DNA of 64,000 bases from Saccharopolyspora phatthalungensis (lineage in GTDB: Bacteria > Actinomycetota > Actinomycetes > Mycobacteriales > Pseudonocardiaceae). Position 1 is the stretch's first letter, and each line of letters opens with the position of its first letter. The stretch is taken from NCBI RefSeq assembly GCF_014203395.1, contig NZ_JACHIW010000001.1:2542001-2606000 (forward strand). Direction: 5' to 3'. The notes under the pieces were generated by a model that was not told the origin of the DNA, ran no database searches, and worked only from the letters and a program-made list of their open reading frames with translations. The position numbers were made by a program, and so were the translations under genes. Shown piece after piece: positions 62,167 to 64,000 of the stretch.

Positions 62167-62973
62167 ATGAGTGGTGATCGGTCGGCCGAGTCGGTTGGTA
62201 CGAACTCCGCAGCATCCCGCGCCGGCTGCCCGGGCCTGGCGGGCAAGCGCGCGCTCGTCACCGGAGCGGCCAGCGGGATCGGGGCCGCCGTGGCCCGTCG
62301 ACTAGCCGGGGCCGGGGCCGAGGTGATCGCGGTGGACCGGGCGGCGGATGCGGTCAAGGCGGTCGCCGCCGAGATCGGCGCCGAGGCCCGGGTCGTCGAT
62401 CTGGCCGACCTCGATGCCGCCGCGGATCTCGGCGATCGGGCGGACGTCGTGGTCAACAACGCCGGCTTCCAGCACATCGCACCGATCCACCAGTTCCCGA
62501 CCGACACCTTCAGCGCGATGCTGCGGGTGATGGTGGAGGCGCCGTTCCGGATCGTGCGCGCCGCGCTGCCGGGCATGTACGACCGGGGCTGGGGCCGGAT
62601 CGTCAACATCTCGTCCGTGCATGGCCTGCGCGCCTCGCCGTTCAAGAGTGCATACGTGACCGCCAAGCACGCGATCGAAGGGTTGTCCAAGACGATCGCG
62701 GTAGAAGGCGCGCCGCATGGGGTGACGTCGAACTGCCTCTGCCCGGGCTTCGCGCGCACCCCGCTGGTGGAGCGCCAGGTCGCCGAGCAAGCGAAACTGC
62801 TCCGGGTGCCCGAGGACCAGGTCGTCGAGGACGTGCTGCTGGCCCGCACACCGATCAAGCGCCTCGTGGAGCCGGACGAGGTCGCCGAGTTCGCGATGTG
62901 GCTGTGCGGTCCGGGCACCACCTCGATCACCGGCGCCTCGTTCCCGATCGACGGCGGCTGGACAGCGCACTGA
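62167..62973 (+). CDS. Short-chain dehydrogenase, 3-hydroxybutyrate dehydrogenase-like
   Basis: 268 residues. NAD-binding TGAASGIGAAVARRLA, NNAGFQH, catalytic Ser in NISSVHG and Tyr-Lys in SAYVTAKH, and the hydroxybutyrate-dehydrogenase-type stretch NCLCPGFARTPLVERQVAEQA. Acts on D-3-hydroxybutyrate or a related hydroxyacid; no ketone-body genes are adjacent. ATG 62167 is preferred over upstream 62134 because the family begins shortly before the Rossmann fold. Confidence 0.88.
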   Translation: MSGDRSAESVGTNSAASRAGCPGLAGKRALVTGAASGIGAAVARRLAGAGAEVIAVDRAADAVKAVAAEIGAEARVVDLADLDAAADLGDRADVVVNNAGFQHIAPIHQFPTDTFSAMLRVMVEAPFRIVRAALPGMYDRGWGRIVNISSVHGLRASPFKSAYVTAKHAIEGLSKTIAVEGAPHGVTSNCLCPGFARTPLVERQVAEQAKLLRVPEDQVVEDVLLARTPIKRLVEPDEVAEFAMWLCGPGTTSITGASFPIDGGWTAH

Positions 62974-63054
62974 ACTTTCCGTTGTCCCGCAACCTGATCG
63001 CCACGGCTGCGGTTTCGGTGCGCCAAAGGCCGAAATCCCCGGTGGGGAGCGCTT

Positions 63055-63117
63055 GGTCAAGGCCCGTGGGATACGTCGGATGGGTAGCGCAACCCGATGT
63101 ACTCACGGGCCTTGACC
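63055..63117. terminator. Extended 63-base hairpin between convergent genes
   Basis: GGTCAAGGCCCGTG (63055-63068) pairs perfectly with CACGGGCCTTGACC (63104-63117). Inside, ACGTCGG pairs with CCGATGT (one G-U) and GGGT with ACCC. Likely a bidirectional terminator; a small structured RNA is possible. Confidence 0.65.
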
Positions 63118-63199
63118 TTGGCGACACCTGGGTTCGGACTTGAGTTCCCGGTTGGCCGTGTCCCGGGCGCACCTTCGCTCGGCGGTGCGCCGTGTCGGC

Positions 63200-63505
63200 T
63201 CAGTGGCCGAGGCGGCCGCGCCCCAGGCGCAGCAGGATCATCGCGAGTTCACGACCTTCCGGGCCGAGTTCCCGGTAGCGCGCGAGCACGTCCATCTCGC
63301 GGTTGTAGACGATGCGTGGTCCGCCGGCGGCCATCCGGGCCTGGCCGACCTGTTGGGAGACCTCGGCGCGCCGCTTGACCAGGCGCAGGATCTCGGCGTC
63401 CAGGTGGTCGATCTCCTCGCGGAAGTTGCTGATGGCCTCCGCGGCGGCCAGCTTGGCCGAGGCGGGCTCGGACTGCGGCTGGTCACCGTCCACAGTGGCG
63501 TTCAT
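63200..63505 (-). CDS. Chorismate mutase (AroQ-delta type)
   Basis: 101 residues, all-helical: REEIDHLDAEILRLVKRRAEVSQQVGQARMAAGG, YNREMDVLARYRELGPEG and the end LLRLGRGRLGH. The C-terminal RLGRGRLGH is the part that in the mycobacterial enzyme contacts DAHP synthase, which activates it. Converts chorismate to prephenate for Phe and Tyr. Preceded by an aromatic leader peptide (63601-63663). Divergent from the gene at 63939, as Rv0948c is from uvrD1. Confidence 0.93.
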   Translation of the reverse strand: MNATVDGDQPQSEPASAKLAAAEAISNFREEIDHLDAEILRLVKRRAEVSQQVGQARMAAGGPRIVYNREMDVLARYRELGPEGRELAMILLRLGRGRLGH

Positions 63506-63555
63506 CGGGCGTTGTCCTCCGGCTTCGGTCCCTGCCCCGGCCCCGGAACGCGCGA

Positions 63556-63584
63556 ACGCCCCGAGTCCGAGGACTCCAGGGCGT
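63556..63584 (-). terminator. Attenuator-type hairpin in the chorismate mutase leader
   Basis: On the minus strand ACGCCCTGGAGTC pairs with GACTCGGGGCGT (one bulged G, one G-U), between the leader peptide stop and the chorismate mutase start. There is no U-tract. Confidence 0.6.
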
Positions 63585-63600
63585 CGTAGTGGTTTTTAGC

Positions 63601-63663
63601 TCACGCAGCTACGGGCACCGAAGTCCGGGGCCCGTAGTAAAACTCGTAGGTCAGCGTTCGCAC
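63601..63663 (-). CDS. Aromatic leader peptide of chorismate mutase
   Basis: A 20-codon frame from GTG 63663 to TGA 63601 encoding MRTLTYEFYYGPRTSVPVAA. Four of five consecutive residues are Tyr or Phe (YEFYY). A competing stem, CTACGGGC (63609-63616) with GCCCGTAG (63630-63637), covers the Tyr-Tyr codons, and the terminator-like hairpin lies just downstream. Ribosome stalling for lack of tyrosyl- or phenylalanyl-tRNA would free the downstream gene (classical attenuation). There is no ribosome site, so it may be leaderless. Confidence 0.6.
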   Translation of the reverse strand: MRTLTYEFYYGPRTSVPVAA

Positions 63664-63938
63664 GGGTTCAGTTTGCCACACCGACGTGGGGCCTGGCGAC
63701 GAGGTGGTGCACCAATCCCAACCAGTGGACCCGAACGTATCTGTATCCCGTCGCTCGATCACCAGTTCGAGTTATTTTGAACCACCACCGCCGCGGCGAT
63801 CCGCACCGCGGCCCACGGCGCGAGCCGGGCCCCCCACCGTCATGCCCGGCGCCGCACGGCCGCACGGGCGCGAGCGCCGCGTCGCTGGGGTACCGGGATT
63901 CGGGTTTTGTCCGGGCTCGCCGGTAACGTGGAACAACG

Positions 63939-64000
63939 ATGAGCACCCCACTCGATCTCCAGTGGCAGGGCGATCTCGCGCAGCATGGATCGCCGCAATC
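63939..64000 (+). CDS. Start of a gene leaving the window, possibly UvrD/PcrA helicase
   Basis: Twenty codons from ATG 63939, beginning MSTPLDLQWQGDLAQ. Too short to identify by itself. In mycobacteria the gene divergent from chorismate mutase is uvrD1 (pcrA), whose actinobacterial relatives also start with a short MS-x-LFDLP-like lead. The assignment rests on this synteny. Confidence 0.4.
   Translation, partial: MSTPLDLQWQGDLAQHGSPQ

Follow-up and report, generated by a model that had tools for sequence, protein, structure and literature searches.

A probable ribosome-mediated attenuator with phenylalanine and tyrosine codons in the leader of the actinobacterial chorismate mutase gene aroQ

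Background

Chorismate mutase commits carbon to phenylalanine and tyrosine, and the AroQ-delta form of the enzyme is an allosteric partner of DAHP synthase. E. coli offers a classical case of a chorismate mutase activity controlled by Phe attenuation: going by the available text of a review (PMC11802643), pheL there precedes pheA, the gene for the chorismate mutase-prephenate dehydratase. The leader described here shares with the E. coli pheA, pheST (PheL) and trp (TrpL) attenuators a leader peptide rich in codons for the product, and a set of protector, antiterminator and terminator helices. Unlike the E. coli systems, it stands before a monofunctional AroQ-delta gene in Actinobacteria and joins Phe with Tyr codons; furthermore, its ORF is probably leaderless, its terminator is poor in U-tract and it matches no Rfam family.

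Closer in phylogeny are the trpL and aroR leaders of C. glutamicum covered in the same review. The aroR leader precedes aroF and carries Phe-Tyr-Phe, with stalling under Phe limitation (Neshat 2014, as relayed in the available text of PMC11802643 and PMC4046766). It resembles the aroQ leader in being an actinobacterial aromatic-codon leader with ribosome stalling, which we propose for aroQ, but it controls DAHP synthase and not chorismate mutase, and the likeness is one of description. The available text of a Streptomyces lividans transcriptome study (PMC8079986) describes trpL, leuL, ilvL and related leaders which are likewise characterized by a leaderless start, product codons, hairpins and, often, no U-rich tail; in several Streptomyces leaders the first base of the RNA lies at the start codon, and none of the 8 leaders given there belongs to Phe/Tyr or chorismate mutase. 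Seliverstov 2005 (PMC1262725), in the part available, reports that the Phe and Tyr operons of Actinobacteria are not preceded by conserved RNA structures, and the word chorismate is absent from the available text of that paper as well as of PMC4046766, PMC8079986, PMC13236596, PMC4833913, PMC2965389, PMC4633059 and PMC4128351. Given the classical precedent of E. coli pheA, attenuation of aroQ counts as a known kind of mechanism, seen also in trp and in C. glutamicum aroR; for this gene and these organisms we found no earlier report of an attenuator in the open-access literature, supplements aside.

Results and discussion

Anatomy of the aroQ leader

We analysed a 64-kb stretch of Saccharopolyspora phatthalungensis DNA (hereafter the window), for which the original prediction had proposed a leader peptide and attenuator ahead of a chorismate mutase gene. 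A 20-codon frame containing YEFYY is present just upstream of aroQ exactly as described, and the downstream gene was correctly recognized as encoding a monofunctional chorismate mutase: a domain search assigns the product to the type II chorismate mutases (PF01817, E 3.3e-12), and its nearest PDB chains, 6ygt and 2qbv (= Rv0948c), are both intracellular chorismate mutases. On the minus strand the sequence of the window presents, in 5' to 3' order, a -10-like box, the leader ORF, a spacer, a hairpin, GGAGG and aroQ (Table 1). Both hairpins fold where they had been placed: the helix of hairpin 1 pairs segment 1 (63637-63630) with the end of segment 2 (63616-63609) and starts inside the Tyr codons, and the terminator-like hairpin before aroQ ends at 63556, as originally given. 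To these we add a third pairing, in which the inner arm of hairpin 1 is complementary to the 5' arm of the terminator and would form the antiterminator.

Table 1. Features of the aroQ leader region, in coordinates of the window
Feature	Position	Strand	Basis or remark
Extended -10-like box, TGTGG-CAAACT	63670..63680	-	sequence; 6 nt ahead of the leader GTG; promoter function inferred
Leader ORF, GTG 63663 to TGA 63601, 20 codons, MRTLTYEFYYGPRTSVPVAA	63601..63663	-	probably leaderless
Control codons UUU UAC UAC (Phe8 Tyr9 Tyr10)	63634..63642	-	alignment of 118 leaders
Hairpin 1 (segments 1+2), CUACGGGC ... GCCCGUAG	63609..63637	-	fold, covariation
Segment 2 core GGACUUCGG, antiterminator 5' strand	63618..63626	-	pairs 9/9 (2 G-U) with 63571-63579
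Segment 3 core CUGGAGUCC, antiterminator 3' strand and part of terminator 5' arm	63571..63579	-	
Terminator-like hairpin (segments 3+4), nearly without U-tract	63556..63584	-	fold, covariation, tail count
GGAGG, Shine-Dalgarno sequence of aroQ	63516..63520	-	sequence
aroQ, monofunctional chorismate mutase (AroQ-delta type), 101 aa, ATG at 63505	63200..63505	-	PF01817, nearest PDB

The peptide stands out within the window, being the sole case with 4 F/Y in 5 residues among 628 short ORF ends; simulation of 30 first-order Markov windows yielded none. By itself, the 171-nt window leader has an unremarkable fold energy (z -1.5; 16 of 200 shuffles were equally good), and in the terminator tail 2 of the 10 nt following the G-run are T. 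Given this poor U-tract and unremarkable whole-leader fold energy, the case for the element rests on comparison.

Two further features of the neighbourhood may be recorded. An imperfect inverted repeat (63055-63120) lies where an SDR-like gene and aroQ converge, between their ends, and has two more copies in the genome with 77-78% identity (C1:5656677 and C1:5657194); it may belong to a small family of repeats or act as a bidirectional terminator. On the plus strand, a divergent ORF begins at 63939-64000 (MSTPLDLQWQG...), which, judged by eye from the same place in locus L057, perhaps encodes a UvrD/PcrA-type helicase.

Phyletic distribution of the element

Scanning named genomes gave 167 confirmed places, of which the best 80, mostly from Pseudonocardiales, were used. 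The leader motif is found in 79 of these best 80, the exception being L057, in which the T-run is one T shorter and the frame is lost. We built a covariance model, R1, on 69 distinct leaders from the window and the named loci, and a second, R2, on 83 leaders, some of them from the genomes being searched. R1 matched 175 of the 249 genomes of the order (E<=1e-3) and R2 matched 203, with the R2 match missing in the other 46. At E<=0.01, R2 also matched 100 of 394 genomes of the class, not all of these matches being true. The genome of the window itself has one convincing R1 match, and three more at E 1.9-3.4, one of which is antisense to the leader. With 79 of 80 named loci carrying it, and 175 (R1) or 203 (R2) genomes of the order out of 249 matched, the element is not a product of chance.

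In all 19 genomes for which the position of aroQ and that of the match were both listed, comparison by hand puts the match immediately ahead of aroQ, on the strand of the gene. We fetched 100 loci, in sets of 60 and 40, which are part of the matches listed. In the first set, tblastn found aroQ downstream of 47 of 50 matches (L144-L192 and L203; L151 carries the leader motif); as for the remaining three, L144 is at a contig edge, aroQ was found by a separate search in L163, and L166 is without assignment. The rest of that set consists of eight terminators belonging to other genes (L193, L194, L196-L199, L201 and L202) and two DAHP synthase leaders (L195 and L200). The second set comprised 11 loci before aroQ, 17 before DAHP synthase and 11 unrelated ones, together with L212, which is antisense to a DAHP synthase start. 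In all 7 fetched loci with an inferred Streptomyces-like label, of 16 such matches in the class, the element is at aroQ. In group f8, which appears Mycobacterium-like, some leaders look decayed, reading FIY (L225), FPY (L242) and FSY (L243); L203 of this group has a poor terminator and its leader too seems decayed.

Leader peptide and control codons

The leader is typified by aromatic residues at the edge of hairpin 1: among 118 leaders found by motif or model, 117 have at least 2 of the 3 aromatic residues there, and all three are aromatic in 108. FFY is the predominant form (96/118), followed by FYY (10/118); an 'LFL' row in this count corresponds to the shifted frame of L058. The first control codon (63640-63642 in the window) is UUU in 109 of the 118, a codon that is rare elsewhere, accounting for 13 of 273 Phe codons in 27 long ORFs of the window and for 11 of 247 in DAHP synthase genes. 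A Trp codon near the hairpin was seen in only 1 of the 118 aroQ leaders. These features bear on the proposal that the leader is constitutive, with hairpins that insulate or stabilise the mRNA and a translated short ORF that senses no amino acids. Such a leader would sit comfortably with a terminator poor in U-tract and with the loss or decay of the element in some genomes, but it would not require aromatic codons at one fixed place, the conservation of a rare UUU or the addition of Trp codons where the gene is DAHP synthase (see below), and we regard it as quite improbable.

In four loci (L050, L058, L060 and L086) a 1-nt deletion after the aromatic codons alters the tail of the peptide and spares the RNA helices, indicating that the tail of the leader is conserved as RNA and not as peptide. 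The conserved UUU gives a run of about 5 U at the control codons, which could sharpen stalling or pause RNA polymerase. A named NCBIfam leader family was considered for seven leader peptides, and no such assignment was found.

Putative promoter and probable leaderless start

Of the 116 leaders with an in-frame start, 91 have a hexamer of the form [TC]A...T, a pattern defined once the sequences had been inspected, whose end lies 6 nt (63 leaders) or 7 nt (28) ahead of the start. The hexamer is rare at other spacings, with a background of 1.9% per position, and is missing at that spacing in 25 of the 116. Because this -10 box lies 6-7 nt upstream, the first base of the RNA is probably at the start codon, making the leader leaderless. 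A sigma-70 consensus scan found no promoter, since the -10 box of the leader misses the rule of the scan. The original prediction had taken a transcription start downstream of 63601 as evidence against itself; the predicted start, 63663, is upstream of that position.

The run of aromatic codons shares its frame with a start placed at promoter distance, which also argues against a ligand-binding riboswitch or a T-box in place of a translated leader. A structured and conserved leader ahead of an amino-acid gene could suggest either; we consider this reading extremely improbable. Rfam families (Phe_leader, Trp_leader, T-box and others) were compared with window positions 62500-64000 and 14 relatives, and none reached its gathering score; the nearest match was suhB in L149, with 29.8 bits against a gathering score of 41.

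Conservation and covariation of the helices

In a MAFFT alignment of 69 leaders, 97.3% of the cells of hairpin 1 and the terminator (RNAalifold structure) are paired, compared to 26-66% in controls slid along the alignment, and we counted 51 double changes against 15.8 in shuffles. In 83 leaders aligned with R1, which biases the alignment toward these two helices, 92.9% are paired (slid controls 35-57%), with 106 double changes against 31.4. The lack of conserved codons or stems in relatives, which the original prediction had named as counting against it, was not seen: the aromatic codons and both stems are conserved, and the stems covary. T-runs of at least 4 follow the terminator in 25 of the 83 leaders (3 of 34 Pseudonocardiaceae and 22 of 49 others).

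The pairs of the antiterminator lie outside R1, the aligning model. In the 83 leaders 88.7% of them are paired, as against 17-71% in slid controls, over which the helix is favoured by having been drawn from one alignment row. They show 33 double changes against 12.0 in shuffles (0 of 500 as good); the number of pairs showing a double change is 4 against 3.5, 258 of 500 shuffles being as good, and is hence no excess. In the closer set the antiterminator is near-invariant (99.2% paired; 49 of 500 shuffles equally good), and is too uniform to judge. Between clades the partners differ together, as in GGACUCCGG:CCGGAGUCC (L054), GGAGUCCGG:CCGGGCUCC (L153) and GGAUUUCGG:CCGAGGUCC (L145), and the own segment 2:3 duplexes are better than swapped ones in 10 of 12 groups, f10 and f12 being the two where they are not. 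Together with the folds of the growing transcript (below), these data point to mutually exclusive protector, antiterminator and terminator helices, with weaker support for the antiterminator.

Folding of the growing transcript

We modelled the fold of the growing transcript with ribosome footprint sizes assumed from general knowledge. In the window leader, hairpin 1 has a probability of 0.96 with no ribosome, and the antiterminator has 0.97 with the ribosome at F8 or Y9, 0.63 at Y10 and 0.00 at the stop. Once segment 4 is made, the terminator of the window is the favoured equilibrium structure whatever the state of the ribosome (0.94), and the antiterminator must therefore hold kinetically. 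Across the 83 leaders, the expected number of segment 2:3 pairs is 4.7 without a ribosome, 10.2 with a stalled one and 2.7 with one at the stop; stalled leaders with a shuffled segment 3 have 6.4. At least 5 such pairs are formed in 35, 82 and 10 of the 83 leaders in the three respective states, and in 69 of the 83 in the stalled state with segment 3 shuffled. Going by this shuffled control and by the 35 leaders that pair without a ribosome, the model has the G+C-rich segments 2 and 3 pairing easily.

Proposed mechanism

The anatomy, conservation, covariation, codon choice and promoter spacing of the aroQ leader fit an attenuator. We believe that it is very probably a ribosome-mediated, three-helix transcription attenuator keyed to charged tRNA-Phe and tRNA-Tyr, which would bear out the leader peptide and attenuator of the original prediction as far as comparative data can. 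As might be expected of a trp/phe-type attenuator, a short, presumably translated ORF with codons for the products of the pathway lies beside the first hairpin, and the downstream gene, be it aroQ or DAHP synthase, is within the pathway of those codons. Stalling, termination in the cell and the direction of the response would, on the model, be as follows. RNA polymerase would initiate at the leader GTG and a ribosome would load on the leaderless start. When Phe or Tyr is scarce, the ribosome would stall on UUU UAC UAC and cover segment 1, and segment 2 would be free to pair with the emerging segment 3 as the antiterminator, blocking the terminator and allowing aroQ to be transcribed. When both amino acids are plentiful, the ribosome would reach the stop codon and mask segment 2, and with no ribosome hairpin 1 would sequester it; in either event segments 3 and 4 would pair and transcription would stop about 45 nt before aroQ.

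The original prediction had spoken of a translational layer of control. A leader of that type, in which the position of the ribosome makes the leader RNA hide or expose the Shine-Dalgarno sequence of aroQ, is suggested by the window, where segment 2 forms a good duplex with ACCGAAGCCGGAGG ahead of aroQ (z -2.9), a pairing present in the minimum-energy fold. This complementarity is not conserved over 71 loci (mean z -0.14, 13% of them below -1.5), and the strong pairing in the window is thus best seen as an accident of the genus. Moreover, masking of segment 1 would free the anti-Shine-Dalgarno strand under starvation, which is the wrong direction, and the second hairpin, conserved and covarying, would be left without a role. 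We accordingly hold translation attenuation to be improbable; the attenuation part of the original claim is supported, and control is most likely transcriptional, by translation-coupled termination, given that leader:Shine-Dalgarno complementarity is not conserved.

If the transcription attenuator is real, the chorismate mutase-DAHP synthase pair, known for its allosteric cross-talk, would gain a control of dose on the mutase side. Such control would also be of relevance to attempts to engineer the supply of aromatic precursors in Saccharopolyspora, Amycolatopsis, Streptomyces and similar antibiotic producers.

Related leaders before DAHP synthase

Similar leaders precede DAHP synthase in 19 fetched loci (the 17 above along with L195 and L200, the downstream gene of the latter encoding PF00793 and a ferredoxin-like domain). 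In 15 of these, all from the G563 family, Trp codons are present along with Phe/Tyr codons, e.g. MQRNFWRFYGYRP and MRTAWSFWYGDGP, suggesting that such Phe+Trp+Tyr leaders may possibly sense all three aromatic amino acids. The other 4, from three other families, have Phe/Tyr codons only. The leader of L204 and L205 reads MRQHTTFVFTYG... In the fold model the DAHP synthase leaders switch poorly, with 7.6 expected pairs when stalled, 8.6 without a ribosome and 3.2 at the stop, and 5.7 when stalled with segment 3 shuffled.

With the AroQ of the window as query, a match was obtained in 1 of 21 genomes of the G563 family, a query which a more distant mutase could escape. A type II DAHP synthase turned up in every one of 21 relatives of the window, and in 21 of the 22 loci from these 21 genomes it is preceded by no aromatic leader; a short FAYPW frame before type II DAHP synthase in L264 was taken as chance. 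We tentatively entertain, while leaning somewhat against it, the wider reading that one aromatic attenuator family is a main shikimate RNA sensor across much of the class Actinomycetes, sited at whichever gene is the control point. It would be at aroQ, with Phe/Tyr codons, where the DAHP synthase in use is of type II and has no leader of this kind; genomes that lack this aroQ and use a type I enzyme would have it at DAHP synthase, with Phe+Trp+Tyr codons. As the mutase doubles as the allosteric partner of DAHP synthase, its attenuation would then tune the pathway at its entry as well as at the branch.

The Trp-type leaders (L211, L214-L221, L223, L224, L226, L227, L229 and L200) lie at about position 280-400 of the gene-oriented loci, and the motifs FWRFY, WSFWY, WSFFY and FLFWY among them stand before type I DAHP synthase.
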